DNA from: Cytauxzoon felis
Taxonomy: Eukaryota > Apicomplexa > Aconoidasida > Piroplasmida > Theileriidae
Length of the DNA stretch: 46,417 nucleotides
Direction of reading: 5' to 3'
Assembly (NCBI GenBank): GCA_020283715.1
Contig: JAIQCW010000144.1
Location: forward strand, 1 to 46,417
Translations under genes and position numbers: made by a program
Notes under the pieces: model-generated
Databases searched by the model: none
Seen by the model: only the letters and a program-made list of their open reading frames with translations
What the model was told of the DNA's origin: nothing
Shown: positions 2,042 through 46,417 of the stretch, in pieces
Numbering within the stretch: the first letter of the stretch is position 1
Layout of the letters: each line of letters opens with the position of its first letter

Positions 2042-2336
2042 GTCCACTCCACCTGAGGTTACATCCACTTCTTTTCCACTAGGCGTGGTGCTTCTCTATT
2101 TACTTCCACGTAAACGGTATAGCCACTCCCGGAGATCGTGGTGAAAGTTGGTATTTATTATTACACAGGGGCATAGGGTAACTGGGGATAACTAACACTA
2201 TAGTCCCCATAATACCCCATAATATTCACTTTCACCACGATCTCCGGGAGTGGCTCTACTCTTTAGAGATAGGTAATTAGAAGAGCTGTCTGCAAGACGA
2301 CCTCAGGTGGAGAAGCCTCCACCGCAGTGGGAACAG
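2042..2336. repeat. Mosaic palindromic block R1, inverted pair
   Basis: A plus-orientation M1-M6-M3-M4 arm (2047-2148) and a minus-orientation arm (2228-2336) flank a G-rich segment. The two M4 arms form a perfect 26-base inverted repeat (2123-2148 and 2228-2253). Intergenic, just past the 3' end of the 2392-3528 gene. Confidence 0.9.
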
Positions 2337-2391
2337 TTGTTGTATAACCTTTGGTAATCGATTACTCGCGCATTACGCTTTTTGTATAATT

Positions 2392-3528
2392 TTACAATGA
2401 GTTTATCATACCTTTAATTTTATCGTTTATATAATCTATGCATTTTGCATGTATAGAAACTACGGGGAACAGTTCGGATGTCACCTGTATATTTATGAGG
2501 GGTGCCTGTATAAATCCACATACGGATAGAGTTGAATCACTATCTAGCTCTATGGAGCACAAATATGAAAGTACTGTGTCATTGTTCAGCATGTAATTAT
2601 CATGTTCAGCTTTAATTAGCTCTTGGACATTATCCTCGTTCTAAAGGTAGTGATTTGATGGGAAACTTAACAAACCTCCAGTAATAGACAAAGAACTTTT
2701 GAAATAGACTCTTTGGAAGTCGAAGTTGTATAAGTCTTGGATAATTTCACCAAGTCTTTCATGTATTGCAGTTGAATCTTGCGACGCTGAAGGGGTGATT
2801 GATATTCTAAAGAGTATTGAACAAACCTCAGGATTCAGATTACTAAGGAAGTTTTCTATACATTTCATTTTCATATTAAACAAAATTTCGGGTTCATCGA
2901 GCTCTTTATTATCATCATACACCTTTTTAGGATACAAAACGCCTCTAAATATCGACATGAAGCCTCCTCCAGATGAAGTGGACAATGAGTCATCATTTCC
3001 ATCCCTTTCATCACCTTTACGTTCTAATGAAGTAACATTCCCGCCACTTTTATCCGCCATCTTCAAATGATCACTCACACTTTCGTCACAAATGCGTTGG
3101 ATGGCCTGCTTGCTTGAAGTAATTTTAAGGAGTGCTGTGATGGAATTAGTGAAATATGGGTTTAATCTCACCGGAATAGGTTGTAATTCTCTGCTTTAAA
3201 CTACTCTTATCCTCATTTAGGTTCTTGTATACATTAGACATACAGTTGCCCTTTATAAAACTTGAGGTCAAGTATGGTGACAGATGCGATATGAAATAAC
3301 AAGTAAAAAACTAAAGGGCAAATTAAAGATATAAATGAGGTAAAAATAAACCTGAGGTATAGGATCTTCGATGTTGTTATAGTCCTTCGTCAACTTCTTA
3401 ATGACTTTAATGTACATTATAATGCCTGATGTATAAATGTATGAACATCCTATACCCAAAATTAGAAATCTAGATTTCACTTCATTTGTAAAACGCTTAT
3501 TTAAGAAACTCTGTAAAAAATTGTACAT
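2392..3528 (-). CDS. Unrecognised membrane-anchored protein, 330 aa, four exons
   Basis: Exons: 3528-3352, 3310-3172, 3134-2676 and 2609-2392. All introns are GT-AG and the phases agree, so the product is one 330-residue chain starting MYNFLQSFLNKRF. Residues about 20-45 (FLILGIGCSYIYTSGIIMYI) are a probable membrane anchor near the N-terminus. The middle is serine/glycine-rich (about residues 135-170) and the rest looks helical and soluble, with VSDHLKMADKSGG and PEVCSILFRISITPSAS. No known domain is recognised. A PEX3-like topology came to mind, but piroplasms are thought to lack peroxisomes and no PEX3 motif is visible. The last junction (acceptor at 2611-2610) is the least certain. Confidence 0.65.
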
Positions 3529-3612
3529 TTTTTATCATCCTTCTTTTACCCATACCCTCAGTAATTTCCTCTTACTTCCACACATCCTCAGTCGATTTTA
3601 TATATTCCACTG

Positions 3613-5165: not shown

Positions 5166-5319
5166 ATTATCGGAAATTATAACAATAGTTGAGATGAAAA
5201 GATTATAATTATGGAGATACATGAACATAATTATAAAATGTATCGATTAATTTGATAACACTTGTAAAATTTTAATTTAATATCAACTATATATCTCATT
5301 TAATATCATGTAAACTTTC

Positions 5320-5680
5320 ATCAAGGTCGTCTGCAGACAGCTCCTCCACCGAGGTCCAATCCAACTCTTTTGGTCCTGCAGACAGCACTTCTAATTACTT
5401 CCCCGTAAACGGTAAAGCCACTCCCGGAGATCGTGGAGAAGGTAGTGATGGATCATCCATCATGGGAATGATGGAAGATAGTGCTAAGGATCTGTTGGAT
5501 GTAACCTCAAGTGGAATACCCGTAGCTGATCTCAGGGAAGCGGAGGGGGAGGTAAATAGAAGGCCACCACGGCGAGTGGAACGACCTCATGTGGAGAGCT
5601 GACGGCAGGACGACATCAGATGGAGAGCTCTTTGCAAGAGAAAGAGAGTTGGATTGGAACTCGAGTGGATAGTAACCTTT
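5320..5680 (+). repeat. Mosaic palindromic block R2
   Basis: Plus-orientation block in the order M2, M1, M2, M3 (CCGTAAACGG), M4, M8, M1', M5, M6', M2'. It lies in the spacer between convergent genes (the 180-aa protein and centrin), so it is non-coding here. The peptide frame is still largely open. Confidence 0.9.
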
Positions 5681-8123: not shown

Positions 8124-11100
8124 ATGAAGGAATGGTTCAAGAGTAAAGTGAGTGAGATTGGTGAAAAGGCGGTGGATTCTATGGTTAATATAATAATGTC
8201 AAAGAATGATACATCATCAATTACACAATTTCATAATGTAAGTATAATGATTTTATAATTTATTATATATAAATTTATAGACACCATTATTAACAGCTAT
8301 TAAGAAGAGTATAAATTCAAAGGTACAGATAAAACAACCAAATGTAATATATAATACATCTTCATTAAAAGATGAAAAATTATGTAAAATGAAATTATTA
8401 ATATCTGAAGGGATATTTTTATTATTACCAAATGGTACATTACCAACAACTACAGATAATGTACGTAGAAAATTTTATAATTTCAATAGAAATTTAAATA
8501 ATATTGATGATATAAATACACCAATCACTAATGAAACTACACCAACTTCTATAATTAGTAATTTTGAAATACCATTTAATCATCTAGATGATAGAAAAGG
8601 CCGTTTAGAATTTCAACCATTCGGTCATATTAAAGCTCATAAATGTAAATATACATTAACTATAGAATGTAATAATAATATACAAAAATCTGAACCATAT
8701 GATATGGATGATGATCCAATGAATAGAGTAGTATGGAATTATCTATATGAAAATGAACTATCCGATTTCAATGATGATATCATCATAACTGTATCTTCAA
8801 ATCTAGATGTCACTAAATACCTAAATGATCCATTCGATACTACACCAAAAACATTCAATAGAACAATACAATCCAGAAAAAATCTAATCAATACACATAA
8901 TAGAAAAAATGACAACTATTATACACAAACCGTTGGTAGAGCCATCATTTCACTACCACTCATACTAGATTCATTCCATAACAACTATACACCTGATGTC
9001 CAATCCAACTCTCCTTCCATTAGGCATGAAGCCTCTCCACTTGAGGTTACCACCACCGTTGGTCCTGCAGACAGCTCTTCTAATTACCTATCTCTAAAGA
9101 GTAATGCCACTCCCGGAGATCGTGGCAGTGAAAAAGGCGGTGAGGATGTAACCTCGAGTGGATGTGTTCAACCCGGAGGAACAGAGAATTCTACCCGGAA
9201 GAACGAAAATGTTCAACCCCTAAGAACAAAAGATGTTAACCCGGAAGAACAGACTTCCACCGAGGTCCAATCCGACTCTCCTTCTCCTGCAGACAGCTCT
9301 TCCAATTACCTCCCCGTAAACGGTAAAGCCACTCCCGGAGATCGTGGCGGAGAGATGTCAGTGATTGGGCCTCAAGTGGAACCCGCAGCTGATCTCAGGG
9401 AAGCGGAGGGGGAAATAAATAGAGATGCCTCCACGGCAAGTGGAAGACAAGGTGTATTGGACAAGACCTTAAGTGGAGAAGCTGACGGCAAGACGATATT
9501 AGGTGGAATGTCTAATGTAAAGGATGGATTGATATTGGATGGTAAAATATGTAATGATAATATAATTAGTGTAGAAAGGAGAGAATTTAGTACTATTGTA
9601 TCATTTTGGTTGGAATTATTACCATTGAATGAGCATAAGATGGATAGATCAAAATATATAAGACCATTTAATGGTTATCCATTATATGGTATGAAGAATC
9701 CAAAATATTCATTAGGATATATATTAATAACATTAGAAATTTATTGGTATAATATGCCATTATATTTAAATATATTAAATAATATGAATAAATCATATCA
9801 AGAATGGATAGTACAACCAAAATTTGAATTAATACATTTTATGTCAATAATTGATCGTTATATATATTTATATAATAATAAACCATTATGGATAAATAAT
9901 TTATTAATACCAAAAGTATTTAATCCAAATGAATTTTTATTTATTTTTATATTTTGGTTATTATTATTTAATCTAATTGTAAATACTGATCTTAATGCAT
10001 TACCACTTGCAATTTTTTTTATTATTATATTTATATCATTCTATTATAAAATTAATAATCATTATAATTATAATCGATTCAAATATCATAATATACAATT
10101 ATTCAATAATTATAATCAATGGAATCATCCATTCAATCTTAATCATATACAAAATAACACCAATATATCAAATAATACAGATAAATCTCCATCAAAAATC
10201 AACTCCATCGAAAAATATAATAACACAACTCCACTTGAGGTCCAATCCAACTCTATTCCACCTGAGGCTACAACCAACTCTCCTTGTCCTGCAGACAGCT
10301 CTTCCAATTCACTCCCCGTAAACGGTAATGCCACTCCCAGAGATCGTGGCGAAGGTGATGAGGAAAAACAGGAAATGTCTACCCCTAAGAACGAAAATAT
10401 TCAACCCGGAGGAACAGAGAATTCTACCCGGAAGAACGAAAATGTTCAACCCATAAGAACAGGAAATCTACCCGGAGGAACAAAAGATGTCAACCCAGAA
10501 GAACAGACTTCAACTATATTAGATCTAACCTCAAGTGGAAAACCCGCAGCTGATCTCAGGGAAGCGGAGGGGGAAGTAAATAAAGAAGCTGTCTGCAAGA
10601 CGACATCAGGCACCACGGCGAGTGGAATGGAGAGTATGACTGTAATCTCGTGTGAAAAACAGGATGAATGTGGAGTGGATAAGTTAAGTTCCTTGAGTAT
10701 AAGTGTTGAGACTCCTAGATTTCATGATTGTACTCCTGAGAGTAATTTAAATGAAATGGATGTACAATTAGATAATGAGGTTACTACTCCTATTGGTAAG
10801 ATAGATGATTGTAATATAGGTATACAAAATTCTAATAGACATAATATTATTGTTAGTAATCCTTCTTATAGATCAGTATTTAGTGGTGAAGTATCAGATA
10901 TTGAATTAGATATTATAGATGATATGAATATAGAATATGATAATTCATATTTGAATAAACCAATTGTTAAATTAAATGAAGGATTACAATTAAATGAAGA
11001 AACATCTATAATAAAATCTATATATGGTGAACATTATATGAATATAATACGTGGAATAGATGAACAATGTGCTATATTTTCTGATGATAAAATAGAAATA

Positions 11101-11691
11101 GATTTAGGTGATATATTAGATATAGTATTAAAAATTATAAATTATATACAATTTATATTAGGACATATAATAATATTTATAGAAAAAATAAAATATTCAT
11201 TAATTTGGGAATCAAATATTAATACAATTTTTACTTTAATTATATTAAGTACATTATTAATACCAATTTATATAACATTTTATATTATATCTATTATATC
11301 ATTTAAAATTTATAGATATATCTTGTTCTTACTTTTATTATTATTATGTCTATTCCCAAATTATTTTAATAATAATTTTATAAATAATAATTATAAATCT
11401 AATATTTTCTATAAATTTATTATTAATATTATCAATTGGTATCTTAATTGGTATTATAAATTACCAGATCAAAGAGAAATCGATCATAGAGATATCTGCT
11501 CATTACAATCTATTAATAGATTAACCAAATTATTACCAAATAATCATTATATCAATTGGGATCATTATCAAAATATACTCAAACAAGATTTTATCAATCT
11601 CCATAATCAATATGATATCTATAAATTCACACAATCAATCTCAAATATCGAAAGAACTATCATCAAAGATTACTACCTCTCCAAATTGTAA
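8124..11691 (+). CDS. C2 / MCTP-like multi-pass membrane protein with in-frame mosaic repeats
   Basis: Exon 1 is 8124-8237 and exon 2 is 8281-11691, separated by a 43-base intron (GTAAGT...TTATAG) in phase 0. The product is 1174 aa. Residues about 80-190 look like a C2-type beta sandwich (GRLEFQPFGHIKAHKCKYTL and EPYDMDDDPMNRVVWNYLYE). Membrane segments lie at about 590-630 (FLFIFIFWLLLFNLIVNT and on) and in a C-terminal cluster at about 1018-1065. The motif IWESNINTIFTLIIL resembles the W.(D/S)P..T hydrophobic region of the PRT_C/MCTP C-terminal domain. Such proteins tether membranes or assist calcium-linked traffic; this role is inferred. Two in-frame repeat stretches (residues about 276-453 and 687-825) lie between the domains, and the reading frame stays open through both. 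Confidence 0.7.
8992..9525 (+). repeat. Mosaic palindromic block R4 (exonic, in frame)
   Basis: Two M3-M4 cores (M3 at 9092-9101 is CTCTAAAGAG, at 9314-9323 is CCGTAAACGG), with four M7 units between them and one M5. It encodes SSNYLSLKSNATPGDRG and related peptides within the C2-like protein. Confidence 0.93.
10225..10640 (+). repeat. Mosaic palindromic block R5 (exonic, in frame)
   Basis: Order: M1, M1, M2, M3 (CCGTAAACGG), M4, M7 units (about 10380-10510), M1', M5, M2', M6'. It is translated in the C2-like protein, just after the first membrane segments. Confidence 0.93.
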
Positions 11692-11769: not shown

Positions 11770-12052
11770 CATCTGAAGTGCTTTACTTGTCCTGCCGTCA
11801 GCTTCTCCACCTGAGGTCTTTCCACTCGCCGTTGAGCTCTTCTATTTACCTCCCCCTCCGCTTACCTGAGATCAGCTACGGGTTCCACTTGAGGTTAGAT
11901 CTACTATAGTTGAAGTCTGTTCATCCGGGTAGAATTCATGTTCTTAGGGGTAGACACACCTGGAAGCGATCTATGGGAGCTGGAAGGGGAGATAAATAGA
12001 GAAGCTGTCTGCAAGACGAACAGAGTTGTATTGGACCTCAGGTGGAACGGCT
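11770..12052. repeat. Mosaic palindromic block R6 (M5 in both orientations, no M4)
   Basis: Intergenic block with M5 in minus orientation (about 11850-11890) and again in plus orientation (about 11960-12000), two M7 units between, and M1/M2 at the ends. It is unusual in lacking the M3-M4 core. Confidence 0.85.
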
Positions 12053-12351: not shown

Positions 12352-15336
12352 TTAAAACGTCCATTTACGCTTTCGCACATTCTGTAAACGCCTAATTATC
12401 ATACCATTTGTACTATTACGCCAATAATAACGCGGTAATTCATCTTCTCCATTCAATCTGTTATATATCTCATCTATACGCCTAGATACCTCCGGATAAT
12501 ACAATCCCAAACGATCAACACTCAATTTTAAACGCTATATACATATATATGAAGTATACACACTACACTCGAGGTCCCATCCAACTCTCTTCCACTCGAG
12601 GTCTTTCCACTAGGCGTGGAGCCTCTCCTATTTACTTCCCCTCCGCTTCCCTGAGATCAGCTACGGGTATTCCACTTGAGGTTACATCATTACCTTCAAC
12701 ATTGCCACGATCTCTGGGAGTGGCTATACTCTTTAGAGATAGGTAATTAAAAGAGCTGACGGCAGGACCGACCTCGAGTGGAACAGAGGTTGTAACCTCA
12801 GGTGGAATGTAGATTTGTATAGACATACTTGTAATTCGATGGTTGAGTTGATTTCCTTAAGATTTATATATTCTAATAATTGGTTATTGAATTTAGTATT
12901 AGTATAATTGAGTTTACTGAAGTATGAGAGTAATTTGATTGAAGATTTTGTATTGAGATTTTTTGTATTGAAGATATGGTTGATAATTTTATTGAATAAT
13001 TTATCATTAATAAGATGTATTTTAGAATATGATTGTATAATTGTAATAGCATCATGTATTAGAAATTCATTTAATACTTCTTCTTTTTGTATAATTGTAC
13101 TTATAATATTATAGAATTTTAATTCTTTACATTTAAATCTACTAAATCCTAATAATAAATTTGTTATTATATGTGGATCTAAAATAGAATCTTCATCTAT
13201 AAATGTATATACTGATCTTAATAATAATGATATTATACCCCTATTATTATAATTCAATTTTGATAATGATATTATTATATAAGATATATCCAACAATTCA
13301 AATTCTCTAATCCTTCTCCTCATATCTATCATCATCCTATCCAATAATATACATGATATATCCTCACCATATACCTTACCAAATATCCTCAAACATAATA
13401 CCAACATCGTAGAAGATAATACACTTGAGGATACAATCCGACTCTCCATTCCACTAGGCGTGGTGCCTTCTCTATTTAGTTCCCCCTCAAGCTCCCGTAG
13501 ATCACTTTCGGGTTTTCCACTTGAGGTCTGTTCTTCCGGGTTAACATCATTAGTTACTCCGGGTAGAATTCCTGTTCTTAGGGGTTGAACATGTTCGTTC
13601 TTAGGGGTAGACATTTCCTGTTCTTCCGGGTTAAGGCCACGATCTCCGGGAGTGGCTTTACCCTTCAGGGATAGGTAATTGGAAGAGCTGTCTGCAAGAC
13701 CAACCTTCGGTGGAGAGCCTCCACGGCGAGTGGGAGTGGAAGTGGAAAGTGGGTTTTCTTTGCATGTATATTTAATATTTGATTGATTTTTATATTTCAA
13801 TTGATAAATTTCATGTAATTTTTTTATAAGTGTATTAAATAAGATATTATTTTTATGATATTTGATGGTATGTTTTAATATTTCTACAACGTCTTCAAGT
13901 GTAAATTTATTATTAAAATTGGAAATGACATTATCAATTAAATCATTATGTAATTGTAATTGCAATAAATAAATACATAAATCAATAGAATGATTTTTTG
14001 TTAATAAATTAATATTATCCTTTATATAACCACAAAAATAATCCAAATATACTACATCTAATAACATCAAACCATCCAATACAAATTTACAATAACCACA
14101 TAAATAATTCATACATATCACCATACTCTTATAATCATCCATTACCAACTCCAACGATGAACCACCATAGTATAAATTTCCAATAGTAGGTCCAGATGAT
14201 GTCACATCATTTCCACTAGACGTTACACTTGAGGTTACGACATTGTATTCCTCTTGCAGAGAGCCTTCCTTATTTACCTTCCCCTCCGCTTCCCTGAGAT
14301 CAGCTATGGGTGTTCCACTTGAGGTCTCCACTTGAGGTCTATTAATTGTATTACGTTCTTCCTGGTTGACATCTTTTGTTCCTCCGGGTTGAATATTTTC
14401 GTTCTTAGGAGTAGACATTTCATGTTCTTCCGGGTTAACGCCACGATCTCCGGGAGTGGCATTACTCTTTAGAGATAGGTAATTGGAAGAGCTGTCTGCA
14501 GGACCAACGGTGGAAGCGAGTGGAACATTTGTGGTAACCTCAGGTGGAGAGTTGTTTGGATCAGTAGATGGATGATTTTGATTGGGGATATTCAATTGTT
14601 GTAGTATTTCGTGTGCAATATCGATTCCTTTGCGGCATTCTGCTAATGTACGGAAGAGTATATCTTTACCGTACGTATTGAGATTGATTTTGACAAGTAA
14701 ATCATCGACATTACAATTGAAGGAGTTCAATGTTAATAATAAAATAGACATTTCTTTACAGTCCTTAATTTCCAATTCCAATGCTTTCAGTTCCAAATTC
14801 TTCTTATCAATGCTATTCAAATTACCAACACCATATAAACGTCCAATCAATTCATCAATAGATGTACATCCAGCAATATCCAACGAAGAAAGGTTGTAAG
14901 TCGAACGAACGGAATGAAATAGACGTCTTCCAGTACATCTTGTCTTAGTCTTGCAGAGAGCTCTACACCTAAGGTCCATCCTGCCGTCAGCTCTTCCATT
15001 TACTTCCCCCTCCCCCTCCCTGAGATCAGCTACGGGTTCTCCACTTGAGGTCCAATCTACTACACCTATACTTTTGCCACGATCTCTGGGAGTGGCTATA
15101 CTCTTTAGAGATAGGTAATTGGAAGAGCTCTCTGCAAGAGAATGCGAGGTTGTAACCTCAGGTGGAGAGCCACCATGGCGAGTGGCAACGGCAGGAGCAA
15201 TAGTTAAGGTCTGTTCTTCCGGGTAGAATAGTTTATTATATATAATGGAAACATGTTTGTATAATAAATTCCTATTAGTAGATGATATAGGTAGACAATC
15301 ATATAACTTGTTGATAAATAATATATTCTTCATCAT
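12352..15336 (-). CDS. FASTK/heptatricopeptide-like organellar RNA-binding candidate, 896 aa, with in-frame mosaic repeats
   Basis: Exon 1 is 15336-12829 and exon 2 is 12534-12352. The intron 12828-12535 (GTATGT...TATAG) is in phase 0 and contains repeat block R7. The C-terminal third (residues about 640-895) is a chain of degenerate helical hairpins, for example IITNLLLGFSRFKCKELKFY and LIHDAITIIQSYSKIHLIND. Splicing completes another helix (STIELQ joined to RLKLSVDRLGLYYP). Helical repeats of this sort are typical of FASTK/RAP and heptatricopeptide proteins that process mitochondrial or apicoplast RNA. No RAP domain is seen at the end. Earlier helical segments lie at about residues 140-260 and 380-530. 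Three exonic repeat blocks separate these segments. Naming is by fold pattern only. Confidence 0.6.
12560..12812 (-). repeat. Mosaic palindromic block R7 (intronic)
   Basis: Minus-orientation M1, M2, M3 (CTCTAAAGAG), M4 (CCCAGAGATC variant), M1', M5, M6', wholly within the FASTK-like gene's intron and in its sense direction. The repeat frame here ends in a stop shortly after M5, as expected if it is spliced out. Confidence 0.9.
13425..13740 (-). repeat. Mosaic palindromic block R8 (exonic, in frame)
   Basis: Read on minus: M6, M1, M2, M3 variant CCCTGAAGGG (13670-13661), M4, M7 units, M1', M5, M6', M1'. It is translated in the FASTK-like gene. Confidence 0.93.
14205..14555 (-). repeat. Mosaic palindromic block R9 (exonic, in frame)
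   Basis: Read on minus: M1, M2, M3 (CTCTAAAGAG), M4, three M7 units (about 14430-14350), M1', M5, M2-like end. It is translated in the FASTK-like gene. Confidence 0.93.
14930..15225 (-). repeat. Mosaic palindromic block R10 (exonic, in frame)
   Basis: Read on minus: one M7 half-unit, M6, M1, M2 variant, M3, M4 (AGAGATC variant), M1', M5, M2', M1'. It is translated close to the N-terminus of the FASTK-like protein (residues about 38-135). Confidence 0.93.
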
Positions 15337-15351
15337 AATTAATACATCTTA

Positions 15352-16727: not shown

Positions 16728-16972
16728 CCCACCTGAGGTCGTCCTGCAGACAGCTCTCCACTCGAGGTTACAACCTTATCTTCCACTAGGCGTGGAGCCT
16801 CTTCTAGTTACTTCCCCGTAAACGGTAATGCCACTCCCGGAGATCGTGGCGACAAACCCGTAGCTGATCTCAGGGAAGCGAAGGGGGAAGTAATTAGAAG
16901 AGCTGACGGCAGGACTGCCCTCAGGTGGAGATCTATATGTATGACGACCTAGGATGTGTAAGGCCTTCAGTG
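16728..16972 (+). repeat. Mosaic palindromic block R11
   Basis: Intergenic, plus orientation: M1, M2, M1, M6, M3 (CCGTAAACGG), M4, M5, M2', M1'. It lies between the CX9C gene and eL28, which are divergent. Confidence 0.9.
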
Positions 16973-17884: not shown

Positions 17885-18140
17885 CTCTACTCCACTCGAG
17901 GTCCAATCCGCCTCTCTTCGTCCTGCCGTCAGCTCTTTTATTTAGTTGTCCCTCCGCTTCCCTGAGATCAGCTGCGGGTTCCACTTGAGGTCCAATCATT
18001 ACCTTCACCTCTTTGCCACGATCTCCGGGAGTGGCTATACTCTTTAGAGATAGGTAATTGGAAGAGCTGACGGCAGGACTGACCTCAGGTGGAGGCGAGT
18101 GGAGAAGATAGTTTGATTGGACCTCGAGTGGAGTGCTATA
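17885..18140 (-). repeat. Mosaic palindromic block R12
   Basis: Intergenic, minus orientation: M1, M2, M3 (CTCTAAAGAG), M4, M1', M5, M2', M1'. It lies between the 3' ends of eL28 and the cyclin-like gene. Confidence 0.9.
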
Positions 18141-20630: not shown

Positions 20631-20687
20631 ATCACACTAACTCCATATATATTGAATTACTAATACAAAAAAAAATTATAATAATTA

Positions 20688-21589: not shown

Positions 21590-21835
21590 TATTAGTATTA
21601 CTTTAGATCCGCTTGCCTTTCCACCTGAGGTTACATTCCCGCCGTCAGCTTCCTTTATTTACTTCCCCCTCCGCTTCCCTGAGATCAGCTACGGGTACTC
21701 CACTTGAGGTCCAATCCTCACATTCAACATCGCCACGATCTCTGGGAGTGGCTATACTCTTTAGAGATAGGTAATTGGAAGTGCTCTCTGCAAGAGGAAG
21801 AGAGGTGGATTGGACATTAAGTGGAGAGTTGTCTG
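21590..21835 (-). repeat. Mosaic palindromic block R15
   Basis: Intergenic, minus orientation: M2', M2, M3 (CTCTAAAGAG), M4 (AGAGATC variant), M1', M5, M2', M1'. Confidence 0.9.
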
Positions 21836-26689: not shown

Positions 26690-26905
26690 AATTCGCTACT
26701 ATATCTGAGATCTCTCAACTGCTGTGGTGGCTTTCACTATTTACTTCCCCTTCCAGCTCCCGTAGATCGCTTCCAGGTAGTCCACCTGAGGTTACATATA
26801 CTACACTTCGCCACGATCTCCGGGAGTGGCTTTACTCTTTAGAGGAAGGTAATTGGAAGTGCTTTCTGCAAGATGATGACTAGACATTCCAATAGCTGTG
26901 GTAGC
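26690..26905 (-). repeat. Mosaic palindromic block R21
   Basis: Intergenic, minus orientation: M2-like, M3 (CTCTAAAGAG), M4, M1', M5 variant (AGCGATCTACGGGAGC), ending with a decayed inverted M5 (about 26905-26945). Confidence 0.85.
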
Positions 26906-28667: not shown

Positions 28668-29044
28668 TGATAATAATAAAGTTTTATAATCTGATTCAAG
28701 GAAGAAGAATATTTATAATTGAAGTATGATATTATAATAATTTTATATGATATATAATTATTTACATATATCTACTACTATACTATATAGCTAGTATACT
28801 TCATATCATGTTAGTAGTTATATAGTATATATATTATTATAAATATCTATATTAATAGTTATATAGTATCATATAAGTATACTTCACCCTTCAATTTTAT
28901 TGATATACATAATAAATTACTAGAAGTATATGGAATTGATATATGTATTTGGATTATGGGGCGTGCCACATAATTATAGTGTTTGTCTAATTAGTACATG
29001 TATTAACGACATTACATTATTAAAATACGATATAATACATTACC
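28668..29044. other. Intergenic, AT-rich; second-family repeat copy at about 28953-28985
   Basis: Extremely AT-rich spacer with a tract of TATAGTA/ATATAGTATA repeats (about 28745-28880). It has a copy of the second repeat family core (ATTATGGGGCGTG and ATTATAGTGTTT) at 28953-28985. No gene is seen. Confidence 0.5.
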
Positions 29045-35103: not shown

Positions 35104-35117
35104 TTTATTATTTAATA

Positions 35118-35900
35118 TTATTTATTTATTAACGCACATGAACCTTTTAAACCTTTACAACTTAAACATGCATAATTTGATAAATAATTCATATATGAAC
35201 ACTTTTTACATTTCCAAAATCTATCTTTATGTAATTCCATCTCTTCACGTTTATATCTACGACGTTCAGATCTTGTATATTCTTTCTCCATTGATAATGT
35301 ATTTATACTCAATATCTCAGATGATATATCATCAAATCCAGATAAATCTAAACCATATGCTTTATTATAATTATTCAATTCAAATTCTCTACGTATCTCA
35401 CTCGATTCCAAACTCTCCAAAAAATATCCCCTATTAAATAATAAATCATTCCTACCTTCATTGGATATTATAGGGATATCATCCCTTGAATTATTATACT
35501 TTATCTCTATCCTTCTATTATTATTCTTTTCAATTGATGATCTATCTATCCTTCTATTATTATTCTTTTCAATTGATAATCTATCTATCCTTCTATTATT
35601 ATTCCTTTTATCTCTATCTTCTTCTATTCTTCGTCTCCCTTCTCTAGAATATCGTCTATTTCTTGAATATCCTTCTCTTAATCGTTTATTATGACTATCG
35701 TCAATAAAATGACGTCTATGACTAGTTTGGGTAATACTTTTACGACGTCTGGAATCACTACGACTTTTATAGCGACTAGAATTACTCCTACTACGATTAC
35801 GTATAGGATAACCCTTGTAATTATCTATATGTCTACTTCTATCCTTGTAAAATCTATACTCTGTTGATGACCTATGATCCAATTTATCAACAAAGCTCAT
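35118..35900 (-). CDS. RS-rich protein with C-terminal RanBP2-type zinc finger, 260 aa
   Basis: Single ORF from the ATG at 35900. The first 100 residues are rich in arginine and serine (RNRSRSNSSRYKSRSDSRRR). Residues about 100-135 hold two and a half tandem units of RRIDRxSIEKNNN. The end has FWKCKKCSYMNYLSNYACLS followed by C, i.e. the W.C..C...N....C..C pattern of a RanBP2 zinc finger, which in ZRANB2-like splicing factors binds single-stranded RNA at GGU sites. RS repeats plus this finger suggest a pre-mRNA splicing or RNA-processing factor. The finger keeps all four cysteines and the tryptophan. The gene carries no mosaic repeat. Confidence 0.8.
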   Translation of the reverse strand: MSFVDKLDHRSSTEYRFYKDRSRHIDNYKGYPIRNRSRSNSSRYKSRSDSRRRKSITQTSHRRHFIDDSHNKRLREGYSRNRRYSREGRRRIEEDRDKRNNNRRIDRLSIEKNNNRRIDRSSIEKNNNRRIEIKYNNSRDDIPIISNEGRNDLLFNRGYFLESLESSEIRREFELNNYNKAYGLDLSGFDDISSEILSINTLSMEKEYTRSERRRYKREEMELHKDRFWKCKKCSYMNYLSNYACLSCKGLKGSCALINK

Positions 35901-37277: not shown

Positions 37278-39223
37278 ATGAACAAGAGAAAGAGATCTGA
37301 TTCATCGATTGGTATTGATTTTAATGAAACACCAATAAGAAGAAGAGGTAGAGGTACTTCTACAATTTGTTATGATATACCATCGATAGAATCTGAATTT
37401 AATCGTATATATACAAATAGTCCTATTAAGGATATAACATTAGATGATAATATATCATTTTTATTTAGAGGAGCAACAAAAGATATTTCAACATCAACTG
37501 TTGGTATGTATGGTGAAATAAATTTGAAATCATTATCAAATATTTGTAATGTTATGAAAGATTATGGTTTAGATGAAAAATCTATTGTATTAGATTTAGG
37601 TAGTGGACGTGGTATACCAAATATACTTTTTTCACGTAATGCTAATATATTTTCATCAATTGGTATAGAAAAATGTCCATTAGCATATTTAGGATCTATT
37701 AATAATATTTATACATTATTATCTAGAGATATTTCAAAAATTAAATCAGATTTCTATACACAAACACCATTAAAATATAAAGATGATTATGATGAAAATT
37801 CATCTATCAATTCCGTAAGTACACAAATCATTGATGATTCCAGCCCAAATTTTAATGAATATGATAATACACCCGATATATATAATACAACATTTAATAA
37901 AAATATAATTTATATCAAGAATTTGATGATTTTTATACAAACACAGAATTCATATCCAATGATGGCATTCCACCTGAGGTCCAATCCAACTCTCCTTCTC
38001 TTACAGAGAGCTCTCCACCTGAGGTTACAACCATTGATCCCACTCGCCGTGGTAGCTCTCCTAATTATTCATCTCTAAAGAGTAAAGCCACTCCCGGAGA
38101 TCGTGGTGAAGGTAGTGAAGAGGGTAGTGATGGATCATCCATCATGGGAATGATGGAAGATGGTGCTAAGGATATGTTGGATGTAACCTCGTGTGGAATG
38201 AAGTGTAGTACTGGACCTCAAGTGGAACCCGTAGCTGATCTCAGGGAAGCGGAGGGACAACTAAATAAAGAAAGCTGTCTGCAAGACAAGGAAAGGACCT
38301 CAAGTGGAGAAGCTGTCTGCAAGACCTACAGTGGGACGCCTAGTGGCAATGGGAGGACCTCAAGTGGAGGCGAATGGAAAGAAAAGGCTTTGGATGGAAG
38401 TGTTGTGACTGGGCTTCCTGAGATTGGTGATTATATTGGTTATGAAGTACCACCATGTGAATTGAGTACACCTATTAGGGATTTATGTTCTATAGAGACA
38501 GCTTTTGAGGAGTTTAAGAATAGGACATCTTCTAGGGGTTTGGCATTTGCTAATGAAGATATGACAGCTTATGATGATTTTGAAGGTGTTACACATTTTT
38601 ATAGTTTTGATATTGCTATGGAAAGGGCATTAATTAATAATATGGTATATCAATTTATGAATACTAGTACAGCTTGGCTATTTGCTTCATTCATTGGTGA
38701 TCTTATACCAAAATATGGTCTCAATAATTGCTTCTTAGCATCCAAAATACCAGCAAAAATGTTCGGTAGTGGTGAAGGACATTGCTGCTATATATATGTC
38801 AAAAATAATTGGAAAATTATTAAACATAAACATGATACCACCATATTACACAAATTACAATGCCCCACAAAAAATGGGGTGGCTTCATCATCAGAATATA
38901 TATTTAATGGGAAAATAGAGGTGAATAAATTTAATGAGCCGACGAGTACGTTGGATTTGATAAAATTATCGAAATTACCATTATATACACAATATTTATG
39001 GTATTTAAATAAGATAAATAAAATGACGAAGCCGGTGGTAACAAGATCATATTCAGATTATAATTTAGGCTTTTCTAATAAATTAAGAGAAAATTTATGT
39101 AAAGAAAGAGATGAACTCATTGAAAAATTAGCTACTTGTGATGAAAAAACATCAAAACATTATCGAAAATTACTCAAAACACACATTAAAACACATTTTA
39201 ATACACACAATACATTCCCATAA
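37278..39223 (+). CDS. DOT1-like SAM methyltransferase with in-frame mosaic repeats, two exons
   Basis: The 5' exon starts at the ATG 37278 and the 3' exon runs in another frame from about 37920 to the stop at 39223. The junction is not settled. A donor after 37818 (GTACAC) with the acceptor TATCAAG at 37919 keeps phase; the stronger-looking GTAAGT at 37815 does not. Residues about 75-130 show the DOT1 pattern: VGMYGEINLKSL (Y.GE motif) and IVLDLGSGRGIPNILFSR (SAM-binding loop). SIGIEKCPLAYLGS is the acidic end. The 3' part has FYSFDIAMERALINNMVYQF and MFGSGEGHCCYIYVK, like the second half of the DOT1 fold. It would be a histone or protein lysine methyltransferase. Repeat block R30 lies between the two halves. 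Confidence 0.65.
37970..38375 (+). repeat. Mosaic palindromic block R30 (exonic, in frame)
   Basis: M1, M2 variant, M1, M6, M3 (CTCTAAAGAG), M4, M8, M1', M5, M2', M1', M2', M6 variant, M1'. Bases 38134-38325 are identical to the reverse complement of 32330-32521. Confidence 0.95.
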
Positions 39224-39254: not shown

Positions 39255-39640
39255 CTTCCACTCAAGGTCCAATCTATCGAAGATCCAATCCACCTCTTCA
39301 TTCCACCTGTTACAACCATCGTTGGTCTTGCAGACGGCCCTCCACTTGAGGTTACAACCACCTTTCCTTCGTCTTGCCGTCAGCTCTTTTAATTACCTAT
39401 CTCTAAAGAGTAAAGCCACTCCCGGAGATCGTGGCGAAGGCAGTGATTGGACCTCAAGTGGAATACCCGTAGCTGATCTCAGGGAAGCGGAGGGGGAAGT
39501 AATTAAAAGAGCTGACGGCAGGAATGTACCTCAAGTGGAACGGCGAGTGGAAGACCTCAGGTGGAGAGCCGTCTGCAAGACGAAGGAAAGGTGGGAGTGG
39601 AATGAGGTGAAGGTAGTGATTGGACCTCAGGTGGATGTAA
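39255..39640 (+). repeat. Mosaic palindromic block R31
   Basis: Intergenic, plus orientation: M1, M2, M1, M2, M3, M4, M1', M5, M2', M6', M1', M2', M1'. It lies between the convergent methyltransferase and FAINT genes and has a long open frame (39322-39678), although nothing suggests it is a gene. Confidence 0.92.
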
Positions 39641-39663: not shown

Positions 39664-40788
39664 TTATTGTTGACATGATTTATTTTCCTTTGTAATATTA
39701 TCATCATGTATTGAAAGTGCCATGTAGAAATTACCTTCTTCGATATTTTTCCATCCATCATTTCCATTTTCGAAATATAAATCACCATGTTGATTACCAT
39801 TATCAAAATGTATTTGTAGATAAATATTAATATTATTTTGATGATATAAAATAACATATGGTGAAATACATTCTTCAATATCACATTGCCATATAATATA
39901 ATTATTATCTTTTACTTGTGTTAATATATAATTCATTGATGGTGTAAATATTATAGATGGTATACCATCATGTTTATTATTATGTATTATATTAAATATA
40001 AAATTTGGTATTATTATATTATTAATATCTAATGTAACTTCACCTATTATTCTAGAGACTAATAAATTATATTCTTCTTTATCTATACTCTTCCATACAT
40101 CATTTATTTTTTTAAAATAAATTTTCTTCTTCTCATTATTATCTTTATTCTTTAAAGGTAAATATAATAATCTACGTATATTCTTTCTTGTATATATAAT
40201 TACACTTGTACATTCATAATTTGGATCATCTCTTGACCAAATTTTTAAATCATCCTCTATAACTTCTATAAATGATACTTTCATACTATAAAATGTAGTC
40301 AATAAACTATTACTTGTATAATATTGTGAATATAATGATACATGTGTATGAGTTTTTGTTATATCTAATATATATAATCTCAACATATTACTTAATTTCT
40401 CATCAAATATTGATGTTACTGTCTCAATCCATCCATCATTATATCTCATATAATATTTATAAGCATCTTTACCATCACCTTTAAATAATCTTAATACTAC
40501 AAGTTCAATCTTATTACAAAGTAAATATGCAAGTACTTGTATACAACTCTTAAATGTACGAGATTTCTCCCATATCAATTTATCACCTTCAACCACTTTA
40601 ATCACCTTTTTATCAAAATCTGCAACATAACGATAATAATTCACACTATTCAAATTCATAATATATCTCCTACCAAATCTTTCATTATCCAACAAGTCTA
40701 ATACTTGATCAATACAATCACTATAGTATATAGAATACAAGAGAGATATCACAACTAAATAACCATATATCTTATTCATTTTACACAT
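39664..40788 (-). CDS. Secreted FAINT-domain (DUF529-type) protein, about 374 aa
   Basis: Single ORF. The likely start is the ATG at 40788 (MCKMNKIYGYLVVISLLYS) or the next one at 40779; both give a signal peptide ending near YSDC. The rest shows about three FAINT-like modules of roughly 90 residues. Each has a pattern of VxxWxSxDPNYECTSVIIYT and a K..W..I....Y ending (NDGWIETVTSIFDEKL, NDVWKSIDKEEYNLL, NDGWKNIEEGNFYMAL). Tryptophan and aromatic positions repeat once per module. The protein is probably exported, as other proteins of this family are in Theileria. It has no membrane segment after the signal peptide and no mosaic repeat. Confidence 0.82.
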   Translation of the reverse strand: MCKMNKIYGYLVVISLLYSIYYSDCIDQVLDLLDNERFGRRYIMNLNSVNYYRYVADFDKKVIKVVEGDKLIWEKSRTFKSCIQVLAYLLCNKIELVVLRLFKGDGKDAYKYYMRYNDGWIETVTSIFDEKLSNMLRLYILDITKTHTHVSLYSQYYTSNSLLTTFYSMKVSFIEVIEDDLKIWSRDDPNYECTSVIIYTRKNIRRLLYLPLKNKDNNEKKKIYFKKINDVWKSIDKEEYNLLVSRIIGEVTLDINNIIIPNFIFNIIHNNKHDGIPSIIFTPSMNYILTQVKDNNYIIWQCDIEECISPYVILYHQNNINIYLQIHFDNGNQHGDLYFENGNDGWKNIEEGNFYMALSIHDDNITKENKSCQQ

Positions 40789-40949
40789 TTTTAATACTAT
40801 AATCAACCCATGTTAATATAAATGTATAAGATAGCTAATCATATTAATTTCAAGATTTCATATCTCATCCATTACCGCTGATCACTTGATCATATTGAAA
40901 ATTCTATACATGAAAACAGACATAATACCAATTTTACCCAAAGGTAATG

Positions 40950-41255
40950 CAACCTCTCTTCGTCTTGCAGACAGCTTCTCCACCTGAGGTTACCTCCTCC
41001 TCTCTTCGTCCTGCAGACAGCTCTCCACCCGAGGTCAATCCTGCCGTCAGCTCTTCCAATTACCTATCTCTAAAGAGTAGAGCCACTCCCAGAGATCGTG
41101 GCGGAAGTATAGAGATTGGACCTCAAGTGGAGACCTCAAGTGGAATACCCGAGAACGATCTCTGGGAGTTTGAGGGGGAAGTAAATAGAAGAGGCCACCA
41201 CGGCGAGTGGAACACTGGATGTAACCTCAGGTGGAGGAGCTGAAGATAGGATGAA
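40950..41255 (+). repeat. Mosaic palindromic block R32
   Basis: Intergenic, plus orientation: M2, M1, M2, M1, M2', M3, M4 (AGAGATC variant), M1', M5 variant (ACGATCTCTGGGAG), M6', M1'. Confidence 0.92.
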
Positions 41256-41309: not shown

Positions 41310-42824
41310 TTATGTATGGTTTGTATCTGGTGGTGAGTGTAATTTATTTTGTCGGATGCGGACATTCCAATGTAGGTGTTCTTTGAGTGTTTTACACCAT
41401 TCAGTAGTTGTGAGTGTATCTTTAGGTAATACGAGTGGGAATAATGTTTCTGATGTTGTAATACGTACAGTTGATCCATGTTTTATATCACAACTATAAT
41501 TCCCATCAATACATACACGCGCATTACCACGATTATCATGAGGTATCAATACCTCAATCAATGCCGAACATGGCAATACCAATGGCCTATATGATATCGA
41601 ATGTGGACATATCACCGTAAATAACATCGATGGTACCTATACATTTATTATTTATACATTAAATCATATTCTAATCTCCACCCGAGGTCAAATCCGACTA
41701 CTCTTCCACTCGCCGTGGAGGCTCTTCTATTTATCTCCCCCTCCGCTTCACGTAGATCAGCTGCGGGTTTTCCACTCGAGGTTACATCCAACACATCCTT
41801 AACACAATCTTCCATCATTCCCATGATGGATGATCCATCACTACCTTCACCTCCGCCACGATCTCTGGGAGTGGCTATACTCTTTAGAGATAGGTAATTG
41901 GAAGAGCTGACGGCAGGACAGACCTCAGATGGAGAGGCTCCATGCAATGGGAACAGTGGTTGTAACCTCAGGTGGAACGCCGAGTGGGATGAAGAGGTGG
42001 ATTGGACCTCGAGTGGAGATGTTCATATTGATAAAACTTACATCTGGGTGAACGATGGATCCTCCGGCGGACATGGAGTATGCAGTGGATCCGCTGGGAG
42101 TACCGATGAGTAATCCATCACCAGATACTGTAGTAAAGTAGTTACCATTATAGTAGACATCGAGTGTTGTGATATAGGGTGACAATCCTCGATCGATGAC
42201 GCATTCATTGAGTGCATTTCTTTCGATGATGCATTTACCATCTTGATTATAGATGCTGACGGATAATTGCGATCTTAATGACATTTTGAAACCTTTGGTT
42301 TCTATAGATTGTAATGTATCTTTAACTTTATCGATATTGAATTTGGATAGGTATCCTAATGATCCCATAGATAATCCTATAACGGGTGGTATATCATTAA
42401 GGAATATTTTATTAACGATAAGTAATGTACCATCACCACCCATAGTAATAACAAGATCGACATTATTAAGATTTAATTTATCATGTAGATTATCTTTATC
42501 TATACTAAGATATTTAGATGAGATATGACATCCATATATATCAGATGTTTCTAATGGGCATATATCATCAGAAGATGATAATAATTCATCATATACTATA
42601 ACTTCACATTCTAATATATTATTAATATATAATACTAAATCTTGTATAGTATTTTTTATATTATTATTACAATCAAATGGTGATGCTAATATAAAAATTT
42701 TTCTGGGTTTCCATTTATAAACCATTTCCATACTACTAGTTCTTTTTAAAATTTTATCATCTCTAGATGATGATAATAAATCATTAAAATTTCTACCTGG
42801 TTCATATAATATACATTTATTCAT
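41310..42824 (-). CDS. NADK: NAD kinase, 369 aa, two exons
   Basis: Exon 1 is 42824-42042 and exon 2 is 41636-41310, joined in phase 0 across a 405-base intron (GTAAGT...TATAG). Splicing gives SIVHPDVPSMLFTVICPHSI. The family motifs are all present: GGDGT near residue 130, the NE of LNECVIDRG and GDGLLIGTPSGSTAYSMSAG with the conserved GTPTGSTAY-like loop. The intron falls directly after the conserved GG.I..P motif, and exon 2 supplies the C-terminal PL..R..VLP strand pair. It makes NADP from NAD and ATP, feeding antioxidant and biosynthetic NADPH pools. The first 60 residues are a variable extension. The intron contains mosaic repeat R33. Confidence 0.93.
41680..42025 (-). repeat. Mosaic palindromic block R33 (intronic)
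   Basis: NADK intron, sense to the gene: M1, M1, M6 variant, M2, M3 (CTCTAAAGAG), M4 (AGAGATC variant), M8, M1', M5, M6', M1'. Confidence 0.92.
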
Positions 42825-43069
42825 TTTGTTAATTATATTTAAATTAAGAAATTACATTTTAAAAAATTAATTTAATATTATATCTTCAGTACACATTATA
42901 TTTATAGTCACATCATATTAATAATATAACCTATACAATATACACTATATAAATATGTCCATTAATATTGTCTAGATTTTTTTTCATATAAATTTCTATA
43001 AAAAATAATAAATTAATCTTCATAACCATTAATAAAATCATATCATAATGATGGAAACATAAATTGATT
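42825..43069. promoter_or_regulatory. Divergent promoter region between NADK and the acidic protein
   Basis: 245 bases between two start codons reading apart. AT-rich, with a run of T's at about 42976-42985. Promoter function follows from position only. Confidence 0.35.
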
Positions 43070-46013
43070 ATGGAAACACATAATGAATCAAATACAATAC
43101 CCATAGCTGATCTCAGGGAAGCGAAGGGACAACTAAATAAAAAAGCCTCCACGGCGAGTGGATTGTCTAGTCATACTCTTCCATCTGAAGTCCAATCCAA
43201 CTCTGATCCCACTTCCACCCGAGGTCGTCCTGCAGACAGCTCTCCTAATTATTCATCTCTAAAGAGTAAAGCCACTCCCGGAGATCGTGGCAATGTTAAC
43301 CCGGAAGAACGAAAATTTTCAACCCGTAAGAACAGGGATAATCAACCCGGAATAACAGAGAATTCTACCCGGAAGAACAGAACTCCACCTGAGGTCCAAT
43401 CCACCTCTTCATCCCACTCGGCGTTCCACCTGAGGTTACAACCACTGTTCCCATTGCATGGAGCCTCTCCATCTGAGGTCTGTCCTGCCGTCAGCTCTTC
43501 CAATTACCTATCTCTAAAGAGTAGAGCCACTCCCGGAGATCGTGGCGGAGGTGAAGGTATTGATGGATCATCCATCATGGGAATGATGGAAGATGATGCT
43601 AAGGATATGTTGGATGTAACCTCAAGTGGAAAACCCGAGATCGATCTCCGGGAGCTTGAGGGGGAAATAAATAGAAGAGCCACCACGGCGAGTGGCAACG
43701 GCAGGAATGTAACCTCCGGTGTGACGGCGAGTGGAAGGAGAGATGGAGGTAGTACTGGACCTCAGGTGGAACCCGCAGCTGATCTCAGGGAAGCGAAGGG
43801 GGAAGTAAATAGAGAAGGCCACCACGGCGAGTGGAAGACCTCAGGAGGATACGGCAGGAATGTAACCTCCGGTGGAAGACTATTTGATATAGATGATGAA
43901 GAAGAAGGAGAAGTAGATATAGATGAGGATGATGATAGATTATCATTTATTGTAGATGATGATGATGATTATAAATCTGATGATGAAGATGATGATTATG
44001 AATTTTTATTTGGTATAGAGAGGAATAAGAAGAAGTTGGATGTGAATAAGAGGGAGCGTCATTTAGAGAGATTATTAAAAGAGAGGAGTAGTATATATAA
44101 TGAATATGAGAATGATGATGAAGATGAGATAATAGATAATATAGATATATTAAATGAATATTATATACATAGAATATCAATAGAATCAGAAATATTATCA
44201 TTATTTTCAGGTTTAATAAAAAAAGAACAATTTAATATAGATAGAAATACAAATGATAATAATAATGAGAATGAGAATAAGAATGAGAATAATATAAAAG
44301 ATGATAATAAATTAACAAATAAATTAATAAAAAAATAATAAAAAATACATTTAATGGACGTATACCTATAGGTAGATTTGGTAATTATAATAATAATAAT
44401 AAAAAAGATAAATTAATAGATACAAAATTAAGTACAATAATAATAATAAATAATGATATATTAAATAATTTAAAAGATATAAATTTATTATTAAATAGAG
44501 AACGTAATAATGATTATAATAAATTATTTAATATATCATTATATAAATATCCAAAAATATGTACTTTATATATATTTAATAATAATTTTATACAATTATA
44601 TATATTACCATTATGTAATCTTATTATTAATAATAATTATAATGATACTGATATCAATCTTGATCTTATTATACAAGAAATCATCTATCTCATCTATCAA
44701 TTATTACAACCACCAACTCAAAATTGGTTCAATTATTGGATCAATGCACAAGAATATTATACCAAATTATCCGAAAATTATTACAATGTCCAATCCAATT
44801 CTTCTTCCAATTCCAATTCTTTTTCCACTTCCACCCGAGGTCGTCCTGCAGACAGCTCTTCTAATTACTTCCCCGTAAACGGTAATGCCACTCCCAGAGA
44901 TCGTGGCTATGATGTAGATGATGAGTACATGACCTCAAGTGGACTACCCGCAGCTGATCTCTGGGAAGCGGAGGGGGATATAAATAGAAGAGGCACCACG
45001 CCTAGTGGAAAGACCTCAGGTAGAGCTGACGGCAGGACGAAAAGAGATGATATAAATACATCATCAAATATATATAATGAGATAAAAAAGAGGACAAGGG
45101 TTGTACAAGAGTATATAAATGGTCTTAAGAGATTAAAGGAGGTATTAACGAATAATAATTTTTGGAATATAATAGGTGATTATAGGATAAAATTAGAGAA
45201 TATTAAATTAATGGGTTATAAAACATTAATACAATCTGAGAAATTAAATGAATTAACTATAGAAAAGGATAAATTAATTAAAGAACGTGATGAATTAATT
45301 AATGATGAGATGATATCATCATCAGATGATGAAAATGAAAATGGATATAAAAGATTAAAAAAAATAAATTATTATATAAAGAAAAAATAATAAATTAAAA
45401 TTAATAAAAAAAATAATATTTAATATTACTAATAAATTATATAATCTTAATTTAGAAATTAATAAAATACAACAACAAACATTAATACATATACAAACTA
45501 TTAGATTATTAATATTTAATTATTTATTAATACCAAATAATAATAATATTATACATATCTCATTACTTAATGAATATAATTTATTATCTATTATTAAAAA
45601 TGAAATTATACAATTATTTAATAATATTAAAAAATCATTTATTATTATCAATAATGATAATATTGAACCACATCCTACTTATCTATCTGAAAAACAAAAA
45701 TCTATATTATGGGAATATATTAGATTAATACATGCTATACTCTCTTCTATTAATATCAATGATTTATTCATACATTCAAATAATCATTATAAAATTGATA
45801 CATATACTAATACAAATACACATTTCTATAATAATGATCATATATACCTCACCAATCTTGCCAGAATCAATCCAAAATTAGCCAAATTGAAAATTAATCA
45901 AAATATAGATAAATTCAATACATACCATCATAAATATACACATAAAAAAAATTATCATAAAACCTTTTTATTCCCAAATAATAAACTCATTACACCTTTC
46001 GATGTTTATAAAG
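43070..46013 (+). CDS. Long acidic protein with repeat-derived N-terminus, frame interrupted twice at A-runs, continues beyond window
   Basis: It starts at the ATG at 43070 (METHNESNTIPIADLREAKG). Mosaic repeats encode most of residues 10-270 (R34), followed by an acidic stretch (DIDDEEEGEVDIDEDDD) and a coiled region. The frame at 43070-44338 is followed by a second open frame (about 44340-45390, carrying R35) and a third (about 45389-46013). Each change falls in an A-run (A7 at 44329-44335 and A6 at 45382-45387). The protein pieces (KYPKICTLYIFNNNFIQLYI, KQKSILWEYIRLIHAILSSI) read on without a gap. This is either one gene with sequencing or real frameshifts, or unseen introns. The last exon ends in a donor (AAAG|GTATGT) at 46013, and R36 lies in the following intron. 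No domain is recognised. Confidence 0.55.
43090..43880 (+). repeat. Mosaic palindromic block R34 (exonic, largest)
   Basis: M5, M6', M1, M1, M2, M3, M4, four M7 units (about 43295-43390), M1, M1, M6-variant, M2, M3, M4, M8, M1', M5 variant (CGATCTCCGGGAGC), M6', M1', M5, M6', M1'. It encodes the N-terminal region of the acidic protein. Confidence 0.94.
44820..45040 (+). repeat. Mosaic palindromic block R35 (exonic, in frame)
   Basis: M1, M2, M3 (CCGTAAACGG), M4 (AGAGATC variant), M1', M5 variant (GATCTCTGGGAAGC), M6 variant (CCACGCCTAGTGG), M1', M2'. Confidence 0.93.
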
Positions 46014-46074
46014 GTATGTTGATACGAAGTCGATGGAGCCTGCGACTGACGAAGGAGTGGAACGACTGAGGTGT

Positions 46075-46417
46075 TGTCCATCCTATGGATTATATACACC
46101 CGAGGTTACAGTCCACCTCCTCATTCGTCTTGCAGACAGCTTCTCTATTTATCTATCTCTAAAGAGTATAGCCACTCCCAGAGATCGTGGCCATGATGAC
46201 GAACGAAGCATGAGCGAGATGTTGTCCACTCCACCTGAAGTCCAATCCTACTCTCTTCGTCTTGCAGACAGCTTCTCTATTTATCTCCCCTTCCAGCTCC
46301 CGTAGATCGCTTCCAGGTTCCACTTGAGGTTACATATATTACATCATCCTTAGCACCATCTTCCATCATTCCCATGATGGATGATCCATCACTACCTTCA
46401 CAGCTTCTCTATTTATC
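46075..46417 (+). repeat. Mosaic palindromic block R36 (intronic, runs past window end)
   Basis: M1, M2, M3 (CTCTAAAGAG), M4 (AGAGATC variant), M1, M2, inverted M5 variant, M1 and inverted M8. It follows the splice donor at 46014 and runs off the window edge. Confidence 0.88.

Follow-up and report, generated by a model that had tools for sequence, protein, structure and literature searches.

The Rickettsia palindromic elements (RPEs) are short palindromic repeats, many of which lie in frame in unrelated protein genes, specify a conserved peptide and are reported at non-structured protein segments; in-frame coding palindromes are also described from Wolbachia and Methanocaldococcus jannaschii (available extracts of PMC10969869 and PMC2996958). 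They measure about 150 base pairs (bp), and 44 are reported in R. conorii (PMC10969869, same extracts). PARCEL, palindromic coding DNA of bacteria and some eukaryotic microbes, is shuffled in genomes and specifies tandem 25-residue amphipathic repeats (DUF285) in open reading frames (ORFs) without assigned function (PMC2996958, in the extract available). The palindromic repeats of Volvox (PMC2670323) and fungal (PMC7218506) organelles are regarded, in the accessible parts of those papers, as selfish or mobile. Here we describe a modular palindromic repeat of nuclear DNA in Cytauxzoon felis, a piroplasm that parasitizes cats. It was analyzed in a window of 46,417 nucleotides (nt), which is the whole of contig JAIQCW010000144.1 as examined (positions 1 to 46,417, forward strand; assembly GCA_020283715.1), and across the genome. 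It is probably a lineage-specific selfish element.

Our best reading is that RPEs, unrelated in sequence, are the closest described system in behaviour, the host here being a eukaryotic nucleus. Like them, the C. felis repeat occurs in frame in unrelated genes as well as in non-coding DNA. The choice of nearest analogue made in a first-pass annotation of the window's sequence stands. Unlike the prokaryotic elements, the C. felis copies number in the thousands, 27 of the 35 window blocks span 200–530 bp, and the blocks are mosaics of swappable hairpins that are also present in spliceosomal introns. NCBIfam holds RPE models; eight element-bearing proteins were scanned against it at E-values up to 1 and no family was returned. 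Pfam gave no match to the element in the proteins scanned, and none of these proteins matched DUF285. The host is not a Rickettsia, and its placement in piroplasm nuclear DNA was borne out: the genome encodes C. felis cf76, a vaccine-candidate antigen that carries the element, at 100% identity over 723 amino acids (C114:6540-8708). The repeat resembles PARCEL in being palindromic coding DNA and differs in that its inserts are dispersed, hydrophilic and also intronic. It differs from the organelle repeats of Volvox and fungi in being nuclear and in having translated copies. No described family matching it was found among the titles and abstract openings listed for open-licence papers, in agreement with the first-pass annotation.

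Extent in the window and the genome

Genome-wide counts were made on the 8,623,106-bp assembly, in which the window is contig C84. A wider sample of 182,927 bp comprised the window and 19 loci, L002–L008 picked for similarity to the window and L009–L020 picked by position. Using an independent module parser, 35 blocks of one modular repeat were found in the window (10,327 of 46,417 bp; 374 module hits), against no blocks and six module hits in a single run of a first-order Markov control. About 36 modular blocks between positions 2042 and 46417 had been claimed earlier; both the count and the range hold, the first block starting at 2048 and the last ending at 46383. The blocks are indeed richer in GC than the surrounding DNA (0.501 within, 0.281 outside), and words of 12–20 nt are repeated up to 38 times in the window. 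In the wider sample, 125 blocks make up 28,888 bp, or about 16%.

The copy count that had been proposed as a check revealed a genome-wide family. The core loop pattern GATCTMNGGGA has 7,128 matches (seven for the reversed control), the 12-nt connector T (ACCTCRRGTGGA) 8,274 (control, none) and module Q, at up to two mismatches, 458 (control, none). Among the matches listed, those to the core and T fall on contigs C1–C4, those to Q on C1–C44 and those to the C-core pattern (below) on contigs up to C175. Density differs between loci, the extremes being 3 and 20 cores per 10 kb; L020, L009, L010 and L017 are sparse stretches with 3–4, and L011 has 20. A search of GTDB genome contigs with one core pattern gave no match, nor did a search of IMG/VR contigs with another.

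Repeats are frequent in apicomplexan proteins, which counts for reading the blocks as low-complexity coding repeats; this, or an artefact of assembly or contamination, is barely credible as an explanation. The low-complexity reading was rejected since copies also lie in introns and spacer DNA and in both orientations. Contamination or a chimera was rejected on the identity of cf76 and the presence of copies on many contigs among the matches listed. The absence of the core pattern from GTDB contigs argues the same way, as does the sequencing of cf76 from polymerase chain reaction (PCR) products of 11 samples (PMC3748084, in the part available).

Block architecture and hairpin stems

A block consists of tiny hairpins in an inverted arrangement, joined by the connector T. 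The frequent module order, judged by eye, is T- H3- (H2-) core- / filler (P, Q or T) / core+ (H2+) H3+ T+, so that modules of the left arm are mostly reverse and those of the right arm mostly forward. Cores are paired inversely, with 87 minus-then-plus pairs among the 213 cores of the sample, and fall into types I and II, which differ in stem and in context. The mosaic palindromic character noted earlier is real, and consists of hairpins whose loops are kept (GATCTNNGGGA, TTTA and TGCAA among them) and whose 3-bp stems change on both sides by compensation.

In H1, the core hairpin, the three bases flanking the 11-nt core pair perfectly in 200 of 213 cases, against a mean of 68.0 and a maximum of 87 in shuffles. 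Seven perfect stem types were seen (CAC 92, GCT 67, AGC 25, GAT 8, AAC 5, AGT 2, GCC 1), and when the partner was slid by 1–3 nt, 0 or 1 of the 213 was still perfect. H2, whose loop is mostly TTTA, has the stems CTC/GAG, CCG/CGG and CCC/GGG, perfect in 91/94 (shuffles 48.7, maximum 61). H3 stems are perfect in 182/235 sites (shuffles 62.9, maximum 84), the test being confined to seven listed loops (TGCAA, GGCGA and others) and leaving out the unpaired form GACGGCRGGA. Perfect H1 stems are equally good in exonic (38/42) and other (125/132) cores of pairs. With RNAalifold, the core stem was recovered from 14 half-elements of the window, one sequence breaking one pair; both-sided changes affected four of the ten predicted pairs, three of these being core stem pairs.

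Loop conservation is built into the search pattern of these tests; in a search anchored on the AT spacer outside the core, the exact loop was found at 159 of 208 anchors, with one mismatch at 14 and two at three, the other 32 probably being chance anchors. Twelve of the 17 units with one or two loop mismatches still have a perfect stem. Of the 213 units, 99 keep an A.G beside the core stem; the structure is therefore a distinct short stem bearing an internal loop, as opposed to a perfect palindrome under constant correction. Mispairs in H1, read on one strand, were G.T (10), A.C (3) and other (7), numbers too small to decide between RNA and DNA.

Exonic copies share one strand, one frame and one peptide

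A type I core in antisense followed by a type II core in sense gives a single open frame, referred to as canonical, with the peptide ATPGDRG ... ADLREAEG. As had been claimed, copies lie in exons, in introns and between genes; 14 of the 35 window blocks are within ORFs of at least 200 codons. The features of the window are as follows.

2048–2311: inverted pair, type I / type I; modules 2048–2137 and 2239–2311
5373–5669: I-Q-II block; canonical frame, + strand, open for 108 codons
6829–7310: I-P-I block
9036–9493, +: in-frame block in the 1136-codon ORF 8281–11691(+)
10230–10625, +: in-frame block in the same 1136-codon ORF
11790–12046: block (module parser)
12564–12806: II-I block
13451–13733, -: in-frame block in the 871-codon ORF 12733–15348(-)
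14224–14548, -: in-frame block in the same 871-codon ORF
14948–15226, -: in-frame block in the same 871-codon ORF
16728–16929: block (module parser)
17891–18132, -: block in a 119-codon ORF directly 3' of the cyclin-like gene
18858–18992, -: in-frame half block, exon of the cyclin-like gene 18174–20636(-), in the extended linker
19125–19401, -: in-frame block, exon of the cyclin-like gene
21620–21882: block (module parser)
22582–22884: block (module parser)
23285–23553: block (module parser)
24118–24691: block; canonical frame open for 146 codons
25610–26043: II-C-II cassette in the HAD hydrolase intron; halves 25610–25687 and 25941–26043 around the 240-nt core
25698–25943, -: conserved C core of about 240 nt
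26758–26825: short II-I block
29465–29664: block (module parser)
30098–30356: block (module parser)
31270–31516, -: in-frame block in the 1373-codon ORF 31000–35121(-)
32128–32635, -: in-frame block in the same 1373-codon ORF; 32330–32528 is 99% identical to 38127–38325
33123–33350, -: II-II block in the same 1373-codon ORF
33658–34186, -: in-frame block in the same 1373-codon ORF
37969–38368, +: in-frame block in the 440-codon ORF 37901–39223(+)
39257–39635, +: block in a 158-codon ORF
40962–41235: intergenic block, NAD kinase stop to FAINT-protein ORF
41677–42017: block in a spliceosomal intron of NAD kinase (GTAAGT...TATAG), T modules at both bounds
43109–43876, +: in-frame double block in the 428-codon ORF 43052–44338(+)
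44830–45037, +: in-frame block in the 355-codon ORF 44323–45390(+)
46095–46383: block close to the contig end (module parser)

Two further ORFs of the window were recorded: 153–554(-), near the contig start, is low in complexity, rich in K, N, Q and L and has internal repeats, and 26997–28712(-), of 571 codons, is cysteine-rich, without a Pfam match, and gives the impression of a piroplasm variant antigen.

Among the 87 sample pairs, 21 lie within ORFs of at least 200 codons and 66 outside. All 20 heterotypic pairs in such ORFs have the predicted strand and frame, with the core spacing in phase, and their canonical frame is open in 20/20 (shuffle expectation 0.25); these pairs were chosen by an open ORF, so that the frame agreement is partly built in and serves as a consistency check. 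The remaining 50 heterotypic pairs divide into 27 in phase and 23 (12 + 11) out of phase. More telling is the openness of the in-phase pairs outside long ORFs, in which the canonical frame is open in 16/27 (shuffle expectation 0.65). The other five frames are open in 1/100 cases for exonic pairs and 0/135 for the other in-phase pairs.

A block is present in 11 of the 41 ORFs of 200 codons or more in the positional sample (L009–L020) and in 7 of the 16 in the window. The element peptides are hydrophilic, with a fraction of hydrophobic residues of 0.194 as against 0.382 for the rest of the ORFs of this size, block-free ones included. Two conserved regions of the cyclin-like protein are separated by a linker of 288 amino acids (residues 362–649), compared with about 43 in T. 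equi; the linker is short as well in the aligned proteins of T. orientalis, T. annulata and B. duncani. Two blocks account for about 137 of the 288 residues. A structure prediction for this ORF had a mean pLDDT of 36.5 and was not used.

Introns, spacer DNA and the C core

In the NAD kinase gene a block lies in an intron between GTAAGT and TATAG, the flanking frames reading ...IVHPD and VPSMLFTVICPHSISYRPLVLP. The HAD hydrolase gene holds the II-C-II cassette in an intron between GTATGT and TTTTAG. An introner-like origin, whereby every copy either is an intron or gives rise to one and is spliced out of the mRNA, would account for these two gene models; in both, the splice sites fall outside the block, and for the modelled cases the idea was rejected on this ground. 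It is very improbable for the family as a whole: the single-exon cf76 ORF, with both its blocks, was amplified from complementary DNA (cDNA) (PMC3748084, in the part available), and blocks in 200-codon ORFs contain no in-frame stop, as follows from the choice of ORFs. The spacer copy at 40962–41235 lies past the NAD kinase stop and ahead of an ORF (39664–40812, -) for a FAINT-domain (PF04385) protein with a signal-like N-terminus. FAINT-domain proteins are typical of theileriids.

The C core occurs in nine copies in the sample, all between two type II halves, among them the following.

L014, 1619–1867 and 4054–4304: C-core copies
L015, 2993–3230: C-core copy
Window, 25698–25943: C-core copy

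A profile built from the nine copies found no tenth in the sample; the copies score 186–247 bits against this profile, made from those same nine. A 35-nt pattern taken from the core has at least 224 matches in the genome at up to three mismatches (control, none). The C core may be an independent element or, alternatively, a structured RNA.

The hairpins might instead belong to a domesticated RNA or DNA element, bound in transcripts or chromatin and acting, for example, in chromosome organisation, splicing or termination. The compensated stems, with their fixed loops, and the excess of G.T over A.C mispairs on one strand speak for this, and 7/9 C cores are flanked on each side, at no more than 450 nt, by ORFs of one strand, the arrangement expected of introns. 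Copies lie, however, in both orientations and several contexts, their density is as uneven as described, and Rfam has no match anywhere in the window, its C core included. We judge domestication improbable.

The antigen cf76

Protein matches to the repeat part of one ORF (two of two) and to a second element-bearing ORF (two of two, the best 7,999 candidates by common words having been scored) were in both cases cf76 alleles. No Theileria or Babesia protein was returned for the repeat from the same database, in which seven of their cyclin-like orthologues were present. According to the available part of PMC3748084, cf76 is a single exon whose ORF and three fragments were amplified from cDNA, and its C-terminal fragment was strongly seroreactive while the N-terminal and central fragments reacted less. 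The published genome isolate has the 723-amino acid form and most samples one of about 706 (PMC3748084, same part).

Two blocks lie inside cf76, at about residues 178–272 and 577–657. The C-terminal fragment, starting at about residue 499 as judged from the printed primer, contains the complete second block, and the N-terminal and central fragments each contain parts of the first. All differences between the alleles, in-frame gaps included, lie at residues 119–298 of the longer form, in or near the first block; residues 1–118 and 299–723 are identical. The sole C-terminal variation reported is a 30-bp tandem repeat, and the word 'repeat' occurs once in the main text of that paper (PMC3748084, in the part available). 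We take this tandem repeat to be a doubled H3-T unit, here read as 33 nt.

Blocks could be kept because a common, shuffled peptide misdirects antibodies. A full block in the seroreactive fragment is what such antigen diversification would predict, and when cf76 was compared with the genome (62 of 3,347 candidates scored) matches were counted by hand in at least 41 further frames, free of stops and 300 amino acids or longer. Yet the fragments with parts of the first block reacted less, so the element is not demonstrated as an epitope; 66 of the 87 sample pairs lie outside ORFs of 200 codons, and the cyclin-like protein has blocks too. Adaptive diversification thus seems a poor candidate, on a par with domestication.

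Copying, mobility and origin of the repeat

Direct comparison revealed a 199-nt segment that is 99% identical between two opposite-strand ORFs (32330–32528 and 38127–38325); the identity begins at an H3/T junction and ends within or just past Q. A 313-nt segment is 93% identical between the NAD kinase intron block and 43383–43695 in ORF 43052–44338(+); it stops at the outer T edge on one side, and a core hairpin has been exchanged inside. The sequences of both segments suggest recent patchwise copying between blocks. An all-against-all BLAST of blocks gave 38 segments of at least 96% identity over at least 70 nt, the 199-nt pair not among them; two of the 30 rows listed were self-overlaps of neighbouring flanks.

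No mobility or transposase domain was found in the 12 window ORFs scanned, a genome-wide transposase search not having been made, and the earlier statement that no protein of the window could move the blocks stands to that extent. A single RVT_1 locus was found in the genome, at C56:73693-74436(+); it lies in an open frame of 1010 codons and may be telomerase reverse transcriptase. Of 14 control genomes the search was positive in just 3, so that diverged reverse transcriptases may be missed. A poly-A tail, as in a retroposon or SINE, was not seen by eye at the block ends listed.

Miniature inverted-repeat transposable elements (MITEs) are non-autonomous, short and numerous. The blocks share with MITEs their small size, number and inverted repeats, and could be conventional members of that class, with T modules as terminal inverted repeats, a transposase undetected or lost, and later scrambling by recombination. 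Inverted T modules bound 41 of the 125 sample blocks, and the copied segment of the NAD kinase intron ends at the outer edge of T. Against this, T is also internal to blocks, many outer ends are not T, no transposase domain was seen within the scope just given, exchange is patchwise and internal, and no target-site duplication was found in the 41 T-bounded blocks (lengths 2–8, offsets -8 to 8; the best excess was 7 against 2.45 shuffled, for a 2-mer). We regard a MITE origin as unlikely.

We favour, and hold to be probable, the explanation that this modular palindromic repeat of the C. felis nuclear genome is lineage-specific and selfish, and that it spreads by DNA-level copying between blocks. 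New copies and patches would arise when the palindromic modules that blocks have in common prime template switching or ectopic gene conversion. Such copying would turn the blocks into mosaics in which single hairpins are replaced as units. An insertion in an exon would survive only if it fell in a flexible linker and its open frame agreed with that of the gene; the ability to fold would be required for replication of the repeat and would not stem from the peptide. The natural variation between the cf76 alleles around the first block counts in favour of this explanation, as does the finding of one RVT_1 locus.

Several points weigh against this explanation. The exonic frame agreement, as noted, is partly built in. 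The stem counts take in related copies and so overstate the number of independent stem changes, and the frequent H3 form GACGGCRGGA (56 sites) is unpaired in the H3 register, its inclusion giving 182/291. The kept A.G misfits simple arm-by-arm template correction, and the lean of G.T over A.C would fit an RNA structure. The missing target-site duplication counts here as well; we infer mobility, and neither an insertion event nor an empty site was seen. Finally, cf76 is the one gene known to have transcript support for exonic blocks (PMC3748084, in the part available). A bolder form of the selfish-repeat explanation, tentative and rather unlikely, makes the single hairpin the replicating unit: a short loop with self-complementary arms would be copied and re-templated as a whole, its arms staying paired without peptide selection. 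Accumulated arrays of such hairpins would then form a translated selfish element that gives about one in four long ORFs of the parasite, cf76 included, a shared and shuffling peptide.

Implications for C. felis

The observation was confirmed and is larger than first claimed. From the earlier interpretation the nature of the element, its contexts and its analogue stand; what it had missed were the single exonic frame, the compensating stems, the genome-wide extent, the species with its cf76, and the separate 240-nt core. In-frame palindromic selfish DNA, so far described mainly from intracellular bacteria, is here far more abundant, in the nucleus of a eukaryotic parasite. Intronic and exonic copies side by side are natural replicates, with which foldability can be set against peptide tolerance as the limit to spread, and which bear also on whether stems co-evolve through selection or templated repair. 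The repeat bears on the gene models of C. felis and on its serology, since the block in the seroreactive cf76 fragment is common to many predicted proteins.

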